Positions 9,278 through 13,688 of a stretch of 64,000 nt of DNA are shown in pieces. The stretch covers positions 186,001 through 250,000 of the forward strand of contig NZ_AP014879.1 of assembly GCF_002355735.1 (NCBI RefSeq), given 5' to 3'. The stretch is from Sulfuricaulis limicola (GTDB taxonomy: Bacteria; Pseudomonadota; Gammaproteobacteria; Acidiferrobacterales; Sulfurifustaceae). The stretch's first letter is position 1. Every line of letters starts with the position of its first letter. The notes beneath the pieces are model-generated. The model did no database searches, had not been told where the DNA came from, and saw only the letters and a list, made by a program, of their open reading frames with translations. The position numbers were made by a program, and so were the translations under genes.

Positions 9278-10225
9278 TCAGGGGGTAAAACAGTCAAGAT
9301 CGTTGGCGAATTGGACCGGCCCCGCATAGCGCTGGCGTATGGCAGCCAGGGTTTCCTCCTCTTTTCCCAAGGTACGCAACATGCGGTGTGACAACACCAG
9401 TTGCTTGATCTGGGCTTGCTGCGCTATCGCTCCAATCACTGAGGGCGGCATGTGCAGGTCACGCTCCACGCCGCTCGCGCCCTCGGGCACGGCGTTATGG
9501 GCAATGAAAAGATCGGCGCCCTGCGCCAGGCGTGCGAGCTGCTCGCCGCGCCCGTTGGTGTCGCCGCTGAAAACCACGTTTTTTCCACCTGCCGTGACGC
9601 GCCAGGCCAGCGCCGGGATGTTTCCGTGGGTCACGGGAACGGCGCTGGCGCGTAATCTTTCATTGGCGAAAGGGTACACGGTTTCATCGCCCGGTTGGCG
9701 GCGGGCCTTGAGCTTGCCCGACAACGGATAGACATCCTGGGGCTGTAGCTTGTAGCCGCCGCGCACCAACGGATTCAGGAAACCGCCGAGATAGCGATAG
9801 GCGCCGCGCACGCTGTCGAACTGGGTGCGGACGAACGCGACCGTGGACGGCATGAACCTGTTGCCATCGGGGCCGTAGATCGGCAGTGGCCGCGTGCGCT
9901 CCTCGAAGTACGACGACTTCACCAGCGCCGGCAGATCGGCGGTGTGATCGGCATGCAGATGGGTGAGCAGGATGACATCGAGATCGGACACCGTGGCCCC
10001 GGATTCGCCGAAGCGCAGCGCCGCGCCACCGCCGATGTCCACCAATACCCGCGGCCTGCCCTCGATCCACACCAGGTAACTGCTGGAGGCGCGCCGGTCC
10101 TGCAGCTCCGGACCGCCCGAACCCAGCACCTGGACCTGAACCGGCGCGGCGGTGCCGCAGGTCTGCGCCGCCGCGGCCGGGAGCCATGCAAGATTGAACA
10201 ATACCAGGAGCAGGCGAACGATCAC
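9278..10225 (-). CDS. Exported metallo-beta-lactamase-fold hydrolase
   Basis: A 315-residue protein with a signal peptide (about 1-20). The metal-binding motif HLHADH (His89, His91, Asp93, His94) follows VILLT. Later ligands are probably His in PVTHGN, Asp in FSGDTNG and His in VLSHRM. The overall pattern is closer to RNase Z/arylsulfatase-type members than to true beta-lactamases. Being exported, it acts in the periplasm; the substrate is unknown. It overlaps the rof-like gene by 4 nt. Confidence 0.88.
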   Translation of the reverse strand: MIVRLLLVLFNLAWLPAAAAQTCGTAAPVQVQVLGSGGPELQDRRASSSYLVWIEGRPRVLVDIGGGAALRFGESGATVSDLDVILLTHLHADHTADLPALVKSSYFEERTRPLPIYGPDGNRFMPSTVAFVRTQFDSVRGAYRYLGGFLNPLVRGGYKLQPQDVYPLSGKLKARRQPGDETVYPFANERLRASAVPVTHGNIPALAWRVTAGGKNVVFSGDTNGRGEQLARLAQGADLFIAHNAVPEGASGVERDLHMPPSVIGAIAQQAQIKQLVLSHRMLRTLGKEEETLAAIRQRYAGPVQFANDLDCFTP

Positions 10226-10473
10226 GCTGGTTCCACGCGCTGGATGCGGTCGAGACGGATGCTCAGGGTTTCGCCTTGGCCCCCGCGACAGATGAGAAAT
10301 TCCTCGTGATTGACGGTTTTGAGATCGAGCGGCAGCACCACCTGGTCGTAATGGACATTGTCCTCGCGCCAGCGCAGGTGCAGTTTCTGCCGGTGCAGGA
10401 TGGCGATCTCGTATTCCGAATAGCGCGCGCAGGCGATCGGGGAATACGGGTCGTGGTTCAGGGGTTCAGTCAT
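10222..10473 (-). CDS. rof: Rof-like (YaeO) Rho-binding antiterminator
   Basis: An 83-residue protein with the Rof pattern: YSPIACARYSEYEIAILHRQ, a beta-strand core, and the closing GETLSIRLDRIQRV. Rof binds Rho and inhibits termination. Similarity is motif-level only. It overlaps the preceding CPXCG gene by 8 nt and the exported hydrolase by 4 nt, so the three are likely one transcript. Confidence 0.75.
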   Translation of the reverse strand: MTEPLNHDPYSPIACARYSEYEIAILHRQKLHLRWREDNVHYDQVVLPLDLKTVNHEEFLICRGGQGETLSIRLDRIQRVEPA

Positions 10474-10654
10474 TTTCGCGATGCACCTCTAGGCCCGTCA
10501 GCTCGCCGTCCACGTCGACCTCCACTTGGAACAGGATCGGCCGGCAGCAGACATAGCAGTCCTCAATGTATTCCTGATTCCCGCCCGAGGTGTCGATCTC
10601 GGTCTCGAACGTTTCCCCGCAGTACGGGCACTGGACGCTTTGCAGGCTGGTCAC
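10466..10654 (-). CDS. CPXCG-motif cysteine-rich protein
   Basis: A 62-residue protein with a zinc-ribbon-like arrangement: CPYCGE at residues 9-14 and CYVCCRP at about 33-39. It matches the small CPXCG Cys-rich family found beside varied housekeeping genes. It probably binds zinc; no specific function is known. First gene of a three-gene minus-strand run, divergent from lexA. Confidence 0.82.
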   Translation of the reverse strand: MTSLQSVQCPYCGETFETEIDTSGGNQEYIEDCYVCCRPILFQVEVDVDGELTGLEVHREND

Positions 10655-10712: not shown

Positions 10713-10741
10713 TTGCATCAGGCCCGGGGAAGGCTTATGCT
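10713..10741 (+). promoter_or_regulatory. Sigma-70 promoter of the lexA-dinB operon
   Basis: TTGCAT (10713-10718) and TATGCT (10736-10741) are separated by exactly 17 bases and point towards lexA. The predicted transcription start (about 10748) falls at the first base of the LexA-type operator. Confidence 0.7.
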
Positions 10742-10747
10742 GAGTGA

Positions 10748-10762
10748 GAACAAAATGAGAAC
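10748..10762 (+). promoter_or_regulatory. Putative LexA operator (GAAC-N7-GAAC direct repeat)
   Basis: GAAC at 10748-10751 and GAAC at 10759-10762 are separated by seven bases. This is the complement of the GTTC-N7-GTTC SOS box known from Alphaproteobacteria, not the CTGT-N8-ACAG box of enterobacteria. It overlaps the predicted +1 and lies 18 bases before the lexA ATG, ideal for autorepression. Confidence 0.6.
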
Positions 10763-10780
10763 ATATCAGGATAAGCGAGC

Positions 10781-11386
10781 ATGCCGACCGACCGTTCCCG
10801 CCAGGTGTATGACTTCATCCGTGCCTATACCGCGCGCCACGGTTACGCGCCCAAGCTGCGCGAGATCGGGGCGCAGCTCGGCATCCGCTCGCGCGGCGTG
10901 GTGCACCGCCACCTGCGCGCGCTGGAAGCGGAAGGGCTGTTGCGCATTGAGCCGGACCGCGCCCGCGGCATCCGCCTGCGCGGCCGTGCCCTGGCCGCGG
11001 CACGGCCGGGACAACTGCCCCTGCTCGGGCGCATCGCCGCGGGGCGGCCGATCGAGGCCATTCCCGGCGAGGACGACATCGACCTGTCCGAATTCTTCGT
11101 CAACCACAACCGCTTCGTGCTGCGCGTGGCGGGCGACTCCATGATCGAGGACGGCATTCTCGACGGCGACATGGTGGTGGTGGAAAAGCGCGACAGCGCC
11201 GACAACGGCGAGATCGTGGTGGCGCTCATCGACGGCGTCGAGGCCACGCTCAAGCGCCTGCAGAAAAACCGCGACGGCAGCGTGACCCTGCGGCCGGCCA
11301 ATGCCACGCTGCCGCCAATGCGTTACAGCGCCGCGCGTGTGCGCATTCAAGGCGTAGTAGTCGGACAATTCCGTTCATATAGATGA
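10781..11386 (+). CDS. lexA: LexA-type SOS repressor
   Basis: A 201-residue self-cleaving repressor. The winged helix-turn-helix occupies residues 1-65 (APKLREIGAQLGIRSRGVVH, then ALEAEGLLRI and RGIRLRG). The cleavage site is Ala87-Gly88 in RIAAGRP. The S24 peptidase dyad is Ser120 (AGDSMIEDGI) and Lys158 (EATLKR). All autocleavage residues are intact. The recognition helix S-R-G-V-V-H differs from the E. coli S-P-N-A-A-E, consistent with the different operator seen upstream. An AGGA site precedes the ATG. It is followed after 3 nt by dinB, so it may be a second, operon-specific LexA; whether a canonical lexA exists elsewhere cannot be seen. Confidence 0.93.
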   Translation: MPTDRSRQVYDFIRAYTARHGYAPKLREIGAQLGIRSRGVVHRHLRALEAEGLLRIEPDRARGIRLRGRALAAARPGQLPLLGRIAAGRPIEAIPGEDDIDLSEFFVNHNRFVLRVAGDSMIEDGILDGDMVVVEKRDSADNGEIVVALIDGVEATLKRLQKNRDGSVTLRPANATLPPMRYSAARVRIQGVVVGQFRSYR

Positions 11387-11389
11387 GCC

Positions 11390-12637
11390 ATGAACGCACC
11401 AACACGTCTCTGGCCGCGGGCCATTCTGCACATCGACATGAACGCCTTTTTCGCGTCGGTCGAGCAGCGTGATTTTGCCGAGCTGCGCGGCAAGCCGGTC
11501 GGCGTTACCAACGGCGAGGTCGGCACTACGCTTATCACCTGTTCCTACGAGGCACGCGCCTTCGGCGTGAAAACCGGCATGCGCGTGTACGACGCGCGCC
11601 GGCTCTGTCCCGGGCTGATCCAGCGCCCGGCGCGGCCCAAGGTTTATGCCGCCATCTCCACGCGCATCATGCACGCGCTCAAGGACATCAGCCCGGACGT
11701 GGAGGTGTTCAGCGTGGACGAGGCCTTCCTCGACGTGACCCACTGCCAGCGCCTGCACGGGTCGCCCGAGCATATCGCGCAGCTCGCGCGCCAGCGCATC
11801 CACGACATCAGCGGCGGGTTGCCCTGTTCCATCGGCGTGGCCGGCACCAAATCCACCGCCAAAATCGCCTCGGACCTGAAGAAACCGAACGGCCTGACGG
11901 TGATCCCGCCGTGGGAGGCGCGCGAACTTTTGGACGGGGTGCCGATGAAAAAGTTGTGCGGCCTGGGCCCCAACATCGCCGAATTTTTGTCGTTGTACGG
12001 CGCGCAAACCTGCGGCGACGTGGCGCGTTTGCCCATGACCGTGCTGGCGCGCCGCTACGGCGTGACCGGGAAATACCTGTGGCTGGCGTGCCAGGGCAAG
12101 GACACGGCCCCGGTGGCGCCCGAGGTCGCGTCGCCCCAATCCATCGGTCACGGCAAGGTGCTGCCGCCGCATACCCGCACGGCGCCGGTCATTGAAATTT
12201 ACCTGCGGCACATGTGCGAGAAAGTGGCGGCGCGCCTGCGCCGCTACGACATGCAGGCCGGCCAGCTGTATGTCGGCCTGCGGCTGGAGGCGCCGTGCGA
12301 GGACATCGGCCAGTTATTCCCGTTGCCGTATGGGATGTTCGATGGAAAGCAGTTGTTCGAATTGGCCTGGAAATTTCTCCGCTGCCGGTGGCACGGCGAG
12401 GCCGTAACCCACGTGCAGGTGACGGCTGCCGGCCTGCGGGCCGGCTCCGGTCAGCTTGAGCTTTTTACCGCGGATGACAGCCGCGTCACGCGCCGCTTCA
12501 GCGCCATCGACCGCATCAACCTGCGGTATGGCGAATTCACCGTGGCCCCGGCGATCCTGCTCGGCCGTTCCACCATGCCCAACGTCATCGCCCCCGCCTG
12601 GCGCCCGGATGGACACCGGCAGCACATCCCGGAATAG
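11390..12637 (+). CDS. dinB: Y-family (DinB-like) translesion DNA polymerase
   Basis: A 415-residue error-prone polymerase. The metal-binding residues are Asp16 in LHIDMNAFFASVEQ and Asp110-Glu111 in FSVDEAFLD. The fingers motif TCSYEARAFGVKTGM and the thumb segment GLPCSIGVAGTKSTAKIASD are present. The little-finger domain follows (about 230-350). The catalytic set is complete. It lies 3 nt after lexA, so should be SOS-induced. The last 29 nt overlap the next gene. It is not ImuB, which lacks the catalytic acids. Confidence 0.92.
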   Translation: MNAPTRLWPRAILHIDMNAFFASVEQRDFAELRGKPVGVTNGEVGTTLITCSYEARAFGVKTGMRVYDARRLCPGLIQRPARPKVYAAISTRIMHALKDISPDVEVFSVDEAFLDVTHCQRLHGSPEHIAQLARQRIHDISGGLPCSIGVAGTKSTAKIASDLKKPNGLTVIPPWEARELLDGVPMKKLCGLGPNIAEFLSLYGAQTCGDVARLPMTVLARRYGVTGKYLWLACQGKDTAPVAPEVASPQSIGHGKVLPPHTRTAPVIEIYLRHMCEKVAARLRRYDMQAGQLYVGLRLEAPCEDIGQLFPLPYGMFDGKQLFELAWKFLRCRWHGEAVTHVQVTAAGLRAGSGQLELFTADDSRVTRRFSAIDRINLRYGEFTVAPAILLGRSTMPNVIAPAWRPDGHRQHIPE

Positions 12638-13688
12638 GCCCGCGAAGGGCCGCGGCGCCGTCTCGAATCCCGATGGCCGGTTCGAGCGGCTGAACCGCGA
12701 CCCGTACGACGATGGCTGGGCCGCGGAGGAAGGGATTCCGCCACTCCGGACCACGGTACGCATTGAGCAATGCCGCACGATCATCGCGCACAACGATTCG
12801 CCCGACATTCCCTTCGATCAGTCCATCAATCCGTATCGGGGCTGCGAGCACGGCTGTGTTTACTGCTACGCACGGCCCAGCCACGCCTACGCCGGATTGT
12901 CGGCGGGTCTCGATTTCGAAACCAAACTGTTCGCCAAGACCAACGCCGCCGAGCGGCTGCGCGCCGAGCTGGCCAGGCCCGGTTATATCTGCCGCCCGCT
13001 GGCGCTGGGCAGCAACACCGATCCCTACCAGCCGATCGAGCGGCGCTACCGCGTCATGCGTCAGATCCTCGAAGTGTTATCTGAATGCGAGCACCCGCTG
13101 ACCATCGTCACCAAGTCGGCGCTGATCGAGCGCGACCTCGACCTGCTGGCACCGATGGCGCGCAAGCATCTGGTGCATGCCTTCGTCTCTGTCACCACGC
13201 TCGACCGGTCACTGGCGCGCCGTCTGGAGCCGCGTGCCGCCGCACCCGCGCGACGGCTCGAGGCCGTGCAGCGGCTGGCCGCGGCCGGGGTACCGGTGGG
13301 GGTGATGGTGGCGCCGGTGATTCCGGCGCTGAACGATCATGACATCGAAAACATTCTGGAGCGGGCGCGCGCCGCCGGGGCCGACTGGGCGGGTTACGTG
13401 CTGTTGCGCCTGCCGCACGAGGTCAAGGACCTGTTCCGCGAATGGCTGGCGCGGCACGAGCCGCTCAGGGCGGAACATGTCATGAGCCTGGTGCAGGGCG
13501 CGCGTGGCGGGCGCGACAACGATCCGCGTTTCGGAGTACGCATGCGCGGCACCGGGGCGGTCGCCGATCTCATCGGAAACCGTTTTGCCGTGGCCTGCCG
13601 GCGCCTCGGTTTCAATGAAGAAGAACGTGAGCTCGATTGCACGCGATTCCGCGCGCCCGTGGCCGGGCCTCAACTCGCATTATTCTGA
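12609..13688 (+). CDS. Radical SAM protein, spore-photoproduct-lyase-like (PA0069 type)
   Basis: 359 residues from ATG 12609; the open frame extends upstream, but only this start fits the family. The radical SAM cluster motif is Cys79-x3-Cys83-x2-Cys86 in RGCEHGCVYCYAR. It is followed by the SplB-like barrel (ICRPLALGSNTDPYQPIE, LTIVTKSALIERDLDLL, VAPVIPALND). Members are related to spore photoproduct lyase; the substrate of this branch is not established. The start overlaps the dinB end by 29 nt, placing it in the SOS operon and hinting at a DNA-damage role. Confidence 0.88.
   Translation: MDTGSTSRNRPAKGRGAVSNPDGRFERLNRDPYDDGWAAEEGIPPLRTTVRIEQCRTIIAHNDSPDIPFDQSINPYRGCEHGCVYCYARPSHAYAGLSAGLDFETKLFAKTNAAERLRAELARPGYICRPLALGSNTDPYQPIERRYRVMRQILEVLSECEHPLTIVTKSALIERDLDLLAPMARKHLVHAFVSVTTLDRSLARRLEPRAAAPARRLEAVQRLAAAGVPVGVMVAPVIPALNDHDIENILERARAAGADWAGYVLLRLPHEVKDLFREWLARHEPLRAEHVMSLVQGARGGRDNDPRFGVRMRGTGAVADLIGNRFAVACRRLGFNEEERELDCTRFRAPVAGPQLALF

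Follow-up and report, generated by a model that had tools for sequence, protein, structure and literature searches.

A window of 64,000 nucleotides from Sulfuricaulis limicola (NZ_AP014879.1, positions 186,001 to 250,000, from a genome of 2.86 Mb on a single contig) harbors on its plus strand three tightly packed genes encoding a LexA repressor-protease, a Y-family DNA polymerase and a radical S-adenosylmethionine (radical-SAM) protein. The first gene, lexA2 (10781..11386, ATG at 10781), encodes 201 amino acids and is followed after a 3-nt gap by dinB2 (11390..12637, ATG at 11390, 415 amino acids), which overlaps by 29 nt with the gene of a PA0069-family radical-SAM protein (12609..13688, ATG at 12609, 359 amino acids). 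Upstream of lexA2, the direct repeat GAAC-N7-GAAC (GAACAAAATGAGAAC, 10748..10762) was identified as putative LexA2 operator. It is located about at +1 of a putative promoter that was read from the sequence (10713..10741) and consists of a -35-like TTGCAT (10713-10718), a 17-nt spacer and a -10-like TATGCT (10736-10741). The coordinates given for this unit and its repeat in the initial annotation all hold, and its description as a LexA-headed unit with a catalytic-type polymerase is borne out by profile scores, carboxylates and the conserved operator. Genomes, loci and families used for comparison are given by number (G, L and f; the genome of the window is G000).

LexA2 scores 181.8 bits against TIGR00498 (cut-off 110.95), and PF01726 and PF00717 are likewise over cut-off. 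The Ala87-Gly88 cleavage site and the Ser120/Lys158 dyad are invariant across 19 aligned sequences, and the recognition-helix region reads SRGVVHRHL. DinB2 contains PF00817 (153.1 bits), PF11799 (45.3 bits) and PF21999 (31.7 bits), all over cut-off, and in the alignment with relatives it keeps all three catalytic carboxylates (HID, SVDE), which by domains and D...DE signature makes it a catalytic-type Y-family polymerase. Ten DNA polymerase IV models of NCBIfam were matched, each below its cut-off; NF002677 came closest (244.5 vs 256). Near its C-terminus DinB2 carries QLELF, which we take to be a clamp-type motif. The register of a RecA-NT-like tail is plausible, with an hhalign P of 0.077 that is not significant, and among DinB2-type proteins DUF4113 was matched in one relative (E 0.19) and not in the window protein.

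A scan of the genome for further operators, proposed in the initial annotation, yielded 96 loose GAAC-N7-GAAC matches (25 for the reversed control) and one match to the strict form GAACANNNNNAGAACA, located before lexA2 (reversed control 0). By consensus alone the loose operator is not distinctive in the window, where four matches were observed against 1.69 expected and at least four were obtained in 9 of 100 shuffles. Rather than such counts, the main support for the predicted operator is its conservation: an exact GAAC-N7-GAAC lies at most 160 nt before the lexA2 start in 23 of the 24 genomes of the order with a LexA2 (window included; the exception, L035, has one mismatch), and in the class outside the order the exact motif was present, on either strand, at 16 of 17 readable lexA2 upstream regions (L226 left out). 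Across the 24 genomes 51 strict matches were obtained (13 for the reversed control), 21 of them at lexA2, two before another dinB2 and 28 elsewhere. In several loci of the order the repeat abuts the lexA2 start codon and, judged by eye, its GGAG could act as ribosome-binding site. A GACGAACGAGCGNAGCGAGTAGGGC-like short repeat was seen by eye between operator and lexA2 start in L034, L035, L036, L041, L044 and L045; allowing for up to 3 mismatches, the window has none.

With a single strict operator in the genome, control by LexA2 is probably confined largely to its own operon. Nineteen of the 95 other loose sites were inspected, and none was counted as a target or has the consensus spacer; all 19 fall in frames that run for 100 codons or more from stop to stop on either strand, which is weak evidence because the DNA is GC-rich. 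Three of the sites coincide with a possible start or lie close to one (50134, 974139 and 413880); that at 413880 precedes by ~40 nt an open reading frame of 354 amino acids that by eye resembles a CorA-type transporter. Additional LexA2 targets may exist. Ten of the 96 loose matches read GAACC(G/A)C(A/G)GATGAAC (e.g. G000:C1:1005703, 1195295 and 258641) and resemble copies of a dispersed repeat inflating the count. In the relatives, 19 of the 30 strict matches away from lexA2 were inspected: two precede intact dinB2 genes (L086, L087), and 17 were set aside as single cases, including L088 and L089 directly before gene starts.

A search for a second lexA, also proposed in the initial annotation, identified LexA1, which is 37% identical to LexA2 and of the E. 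coli type with an SPNAAE helix. The recognition helix of LexA2 was thus rightly set apart from the E. coli type. Because LexA1 has this helix and a CTGTATAAATATACAG box precedes its operon, the two repressors presumably read different sites, and LexA2 acts beside, presumably independently of, LexA1. In G039, G048 and G056 (94-97% complete) the LexA2 type alone was found at E 1e-15. The genome of the window also encodes a canonical DinB (412.7 bits, passing the NCBIfam DNA polymerase IV cut-off) and a distantly UmuD-like S24-peptidase protein of 123 amino acids. An integron integrase gene (G000:C1:433593-435379, L057:4594-6380; TIGR02249, 485 bits) lies behind the LexA1-type box with an 8-nt gap upstream of lexA1, so that canonical lexA1 appears to share an operon with the integrase; beyond this pair, three related 31-nt repeats look attC-like by eye. 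IntI followed by lexA1 was also seen in G046 (L308, box CTGTATATATATACAG) and G045 (L310, cut by the contig end), and not at the other four LexA loci checked (L309, L311, L312, L313).

LexA2 orthologues were found in 24 of 57 genomes of the order, the other 23 being ~50-91% identical to that of the window. Directly after lexA2 lies a dinB2 gene in 14 of them (13 whole, and one, in G042, split by contig ends), a truncated relative in six, neither in two (L041, L054) and a contig end in two. The latter contigs end ~430 nt (L045) and 1,180 nt (L053) past lexA2, and the respective genomes, 78% and 76% complete, gave no DinB-type match anywhere at E 1e-8. Catalytic residues were inspected in seven of the 14 dinB2 genes. 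Counting truncated forms, lexA is located upstream of the DinB2 type in 20 of 24 genomes. For the class, 369 genomes were surveyed, 228 of which match the profile of the truncated protein; the 30 best loci minus L223 and L224, whose genomes were already counted, left 28, which are top-scoring loci and not a random sample. LexA2 was encoded within ~400 nt upstream in 18 of these 28 loci outside the order, two of them with a truncated partner. A polymerase under LexA is, by these counts, not the departure from known cassettes that had been suggested. The ten class loci without LexA2 carry before dinB2 either GAAC-N7-GAAC (four), an AT-rich CTG-N10-CAG (three), a loose CTG-N10-CAG (one, L248) or neither (two). 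In G029 and G030 a catalytically dead relative occupies the lexA2 operon, and an intact DinB2, which falls in another tree subgroup, is encoded elsewhere with its own operator directly before the start (GAACAGAATGAGAACA at L087:1995; GAACAAAATGAGAACA, identical to that of the window, at L086:1977). This arrangement is a natural experiment in favor of the switch proposed below.

The observed gene order, residues, operator position and conservation and the one strict site are what we build on in proposing, with considerable confidence, that the unit is a minimal, self-regulated SOS mutagenesis switch. LexA2 would bind the direct-repeat operator overlapping the transcription start and block its own operon. 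Upon DNA damage, RecA filaments would trigger self-cleavage of LexA2 at Ala87-Gly88 via the Ser120/Lys158 dyad. As the block falls, one transcript would deliver more LexA2, which resets the switch, and DinB2, which would dock on the sliding clamp through QLELF and copy past lesions. The radical-SAM enzyme would be co-induced by its coupling to dinB2.

Several observations weigh against such a switch. The proposed promoter with an operator at +1 could be located in its elements and the operator is conserved, but the promoter is weak by consensus, as a scan gave 0 sites at threshold; a comparable arrangement was seen by eye, uncounted, upstream of lexA2 in several relatives. The single strict operator match in the genome is near the chance expectation from base counts, so that its weight lies in its position before a lexA. 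For recA, 330 nt ahead of the RecA-domain match were read in the 11 genomes where this match is complete (a twelfth, G056, was left out as its match is in pieces). Neither LexA box was found there, and the circuit therefore does not obviously control its own trigger. The gap between lexA2 and dinB2 amounts to 120 to ~850 nt in L038, L039, L042 and L047 and to ~185-406 nt in five class loci (L226, L227, L238, L240, L252), so that co-transcription is not given in general. A loose CTG-N10-CAG precedes dinB2 also in three of the 18 LexA2-led loci (L232, L234, L240); since it occurs in these and in L248, CTG-N10-CAG alone is a weak motif. In named genomes, the GAAC motif was present at 19 of the 80 best LexA loci, and a DinB2-type neighbor at three (L106, L108, L112). 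Finally, in a cultured bacterium, Methylophaga thalassica, plasmid NZ_CP143310.1 has a lexA with a DNA polymerase IV gene after it (identities of 44.5% and 49.4%), and neither this pair nor L231 has an exact GAAC-N7-GAAC.

Published precedents exist for LexA together with DinB or PolY and for SOS-controlled SplB-like enzymes (PMC3765255, PMC6511836, PMC8565304; these papers and PMC12926913 are cited from excerpts). The excerpt of PMC6511836 reports a Geobacter-type lexA-imuB-C-polY operon that is DNA damage-induced and transcribed as one unit. As in this operon, LexA heads a unit with a catalytic-type Y-family polymerase; the likeness covers gene content, the operator being outside the comparison. 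Unlike there, no ImuB-C gene lies between lexA2 and dinB2, and a radical-SAM gene is appended in three genomes. On the Geobacter anodireducens plasmid pSD (L301), a LexA gene, a small open reading frame and an unannotated DinB-like stretch (41.7%, in two pieces) resemble the published Geobacter operon.

The radical-SAM protein matches NF033668 (PA0069 family) over its full length with 521 bits (cut-off 360) and PF04055 with 65.2 bits, and its CX3CX2C cysteines C79, C83 and C86 are invariant in 22 of 22 aligned sequences. It had been taken for a photoproduct-lyase-like enzyme. A CX3CX2C cluster motif is indeed typical of spore photoproduct lyase and a weak profile match exists, but the lyase models failed (TIGR04070, 24.1 vs 400 bits; PF20903, 19.9 vs 27 bits), and no fourth cysteine is common to all members (C128 in 64%). 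Among solved structures no match to the protein was obtained at E 0.1. A nucleic-acid substrate is plausible. PA0069 and Rv2578c are LexA targets elsewhere; the literature search gave no paper linking PA0069 with LexA, nor Rv2578c with LexA.

The initial annotation had named missing conservation of the three-gene linkage as evidence against a unit that combines lesion bypass with radical repair. The linkage is present in three of the nine genomes of the genus and in three of the 24 genomes of the order (out of 57) that have the radical-SAM gene. These are the genome of the window, G047 and G042, which belong to a single genus; contig C10 of G042 carries the end of dinB with the radical-SAM gene, and C126 the start of dinB with lexA2. 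Given this distribution, the combination looks like a recent, optional add-on, and the radical-SAM gene, as judged from these comparisons, like a passenger on a lexA2-dinB2 core. Its overlap with dinB2 makes it probable that the two genes are coupled and that, in this lineage, the radical-SAM gene is damage-inducible. A single repair pathway, in which the lesion bypassed by DinB2 is chemically reversed by the radical-SAM enzyme and for which the operon evolved, would be consistent with the 29-nt overlap, with the linked copies in the two congeners (80% protein identity in G047, 72% in G042) and with the SOS regulation of SplB-like enzymes in several species (PMC8565304). We nevertheless regard it as unlikely, since within the genus two further genomes have the gene unlinked and four have no match, no radical-SAM match was found in the 28 class DinB2 loci (reaching ~1.4 kb past dinB2), and by its family score the enzyme is not a photoproduct lyase. 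In addition, the 400 nt upstream of 21 relatives' radical-SAM genes contain no GAAC-N7-GAAC and one loose CTG-N10-CAG; two of these genes are the linked copies, only 54 nt were readable in L063, and G026 and G034, in which the gene is fragmentary, were not included.

The operator had also been called the alphaproteobacterial LexA form, and half-site and spacing are indeed those of the direct repeat GTTC-N7-GTTC of the alphaproteobacterial LexA regulon (PMC8565304), binding here being predicted. The form is not confined to that class, however, as it is also used by LexA2 proteins of further families within the class to which the window belongs, and in the window's genome it occurs at one strict site. 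Among the best 80 of 586 named relatives of LexA2, the nearest belong by title or genus to the Gammaproteobacteria (87-50% identity, L106 being nearest at 87%), followed by a betaproteobacterium (49%), acidobacteria (46%) and one record titled Alphaproteobacteria (38%). An import of LexA2 and its operator from Alphaproteobacteria as a foreign cassette would explain the shared motif and a helix region resembling that of the latter record (L179, SKSGIH), but is very improbable in view of the gammaproteobacterial kin and of the same operator form before LexA2 across the class; the LexA2 tree took in no alphaproteobacterial LexA rows. LexA2 and its operator are not an alphaproteobacterial oddity. 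A phage origin is not supported either, as viral contigs contained no DinB2 relative and LexA matches over residues 3-71 only, at 36%; seven radical-SAM relatives were found there, two at 61% and 53%.

LexA2-led imuA-imuB-dnaE2 cassettes are known, and the unit resembles them as a LexA-controlled mutagenesis unit. Unlike these cassettes, it has a polymerase that is itself catalytic-type and none of imuA, imuB and dnaE2 in the operon, and the genome encodes no second DnaE: it gave one DnaE alpha-type match, one RecA-family match and two IMS matches, i.e. DinB2 and the canonical DinB. Although a LexA-regulated cassette of this kind is named in PMC6511836, the least credible alternative is that the unit is such a cassette decayed to its polymerase gene, because DinB2, unlike ImuB, keeps its carboxylates, the genome has these single DnaE and RecA-family matches, and the full cassette in G021, G026 and G028 follows lexA1 with CTG-N10-CAG boxes, lexA2 being elsewhere. 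Divergently from lexA2, the minus strand of the window encodes, at 10222-10473 and 10466-10654, a protein resembling ROF, with a score below cut-off, and a cysteine-rich CPXCG protein, with a score over cut-off.

The unexpected and surprising part of the comparison is the loss of the active site in LexA2-linked partner polymerases. In eight genomes of three families (G020 and G021 in f4; G026, G028, G029 and G030 in f6; G165 and G281 in f116, outside the order) lexA2 is followed by a truncated relative of DinB2 with ~297-340 amino acids. Their N-termini resemble that of DinB2 (WPRA or similar); the fingers are missing, and the similarity resumes at a D-I/V-T-H motif. Aligned by eye, the first catalytic Asp is lost in all eight, and none retains a complete DE pair. 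A Q-led motif at the place of the DinB2 clamp motif is present in all eight, clear in five (QMELF, QLELF, QLDLF and twice QLDMF) and weaker in L051, L052 and L055; from its consensus it is presumably of the clamp type, clamp binding being putative, and the proteins end at or soon after it. Family scores are weak, with Pfam Y-family domains over cut-off only in L048 and, barely, in L051, so that we base the kinship on the alignment, on gene position behind lexA2 and on NCBIfam matches below cut-off (L051 has none). Pairwise omega was 0.21 for the truncated pair L052/L055 and 0.125 for L230/L233 (0.107 and 0.054 for the adjoining LexA2); the intact DinB2 proteins of L086 and L087 gave 0.168. In the two truncated pairs compared, the proteins are under constraint. 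In the polymerase tree, the eight truncated forms are one group next to the active DinB2 of the order (Shimodaira-Hasegawa-like approximate likelihood ratio test (SH-aLRT) 91 and 97); the branches are very long, and their grouping may partly reflect long-branch attraction. The LexA2 tree has five changes between dead and active partners, with weak support, and does not confirm a single origin.

Like the inactive Y-family homologues ImuB, Kyrpidia-type, scDinB2 and gbDinB2 (PMC6511836, PMC12926913), the truncated LexA2-linked proteins are without catalytic carboxylates. Unlike them, as far as the excerpts go, they group with LexA2-linked DinB2, have lost the fingers, have no ImuB-C and no clear RecA-NT-like tail, and stand beside lexA2 instead of dnaE2. 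Reduction and inactivation of a Y-family protein are not in themselves new, since drastically reduced ImuB proteins retaining thumb, little finger and ImuB-C are described in PMC12926913. The LexA2-DinB2 pair of this lineage and its fingerless dead form were not found in the literature searched, which was covered in excerpts and listings and left most subscription papers outside.

DnaE-type subunits were searched in 15 genomes. A second DnaE was found in G020, G021, G026 and G028, all with the dead form, and in none of seven genomes with an active DinB2; G165 and G281, with the dead form and one DnaE, run against this pattern. In G021, G026 and G028 the second DnaE lies downstream of lexA1 and of a diverged Y-family gene that was read as imuB. 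In G029 and G030 lexA1 is followed by an imuA-like gene, and the DnaE matches are partial (G029) or missing (G030). The names imuA and imuB rest on position, sequence judged by eye and weak RecA-family and IMS matches. The association of dead form and mutasome is a phylogenetically clustered correlation. Our tentative proposal, which may well prove wrong, is that LexA2 and DinB2 form a translesion switch that works on its own, and that a conversion, which may have happened a single time, turned the polymerase into a dead, SOS-induced clamp-binding protein consisting of thumb, little finger and clamp-type motif. In f4 and f6, in the presence of the lexA1-imuA mutasome cassette or its dnaE2, this protein would be an induced occupant of the clamp that limits access of other translesion polymerases or hands it over, i.e. 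a damage-inducible brake derived from a mutator.

The findings point to a minimal SOS circuit in which repressor and polymerase have an operator of their own, in a cell that also contains a canonical LexA, so that two damage responses could be separated genetically. With a PA0069-family radical-SAM gene behind a probable LexA operator, the locus also offers an approach to a family that has no function assigned in its NCBIfam model. The relatives form a series from a catalytic-type DinB2 to a conserved dead remnant, which would allow the role of a Y-family protein on the clamp to be probed without polymerization.

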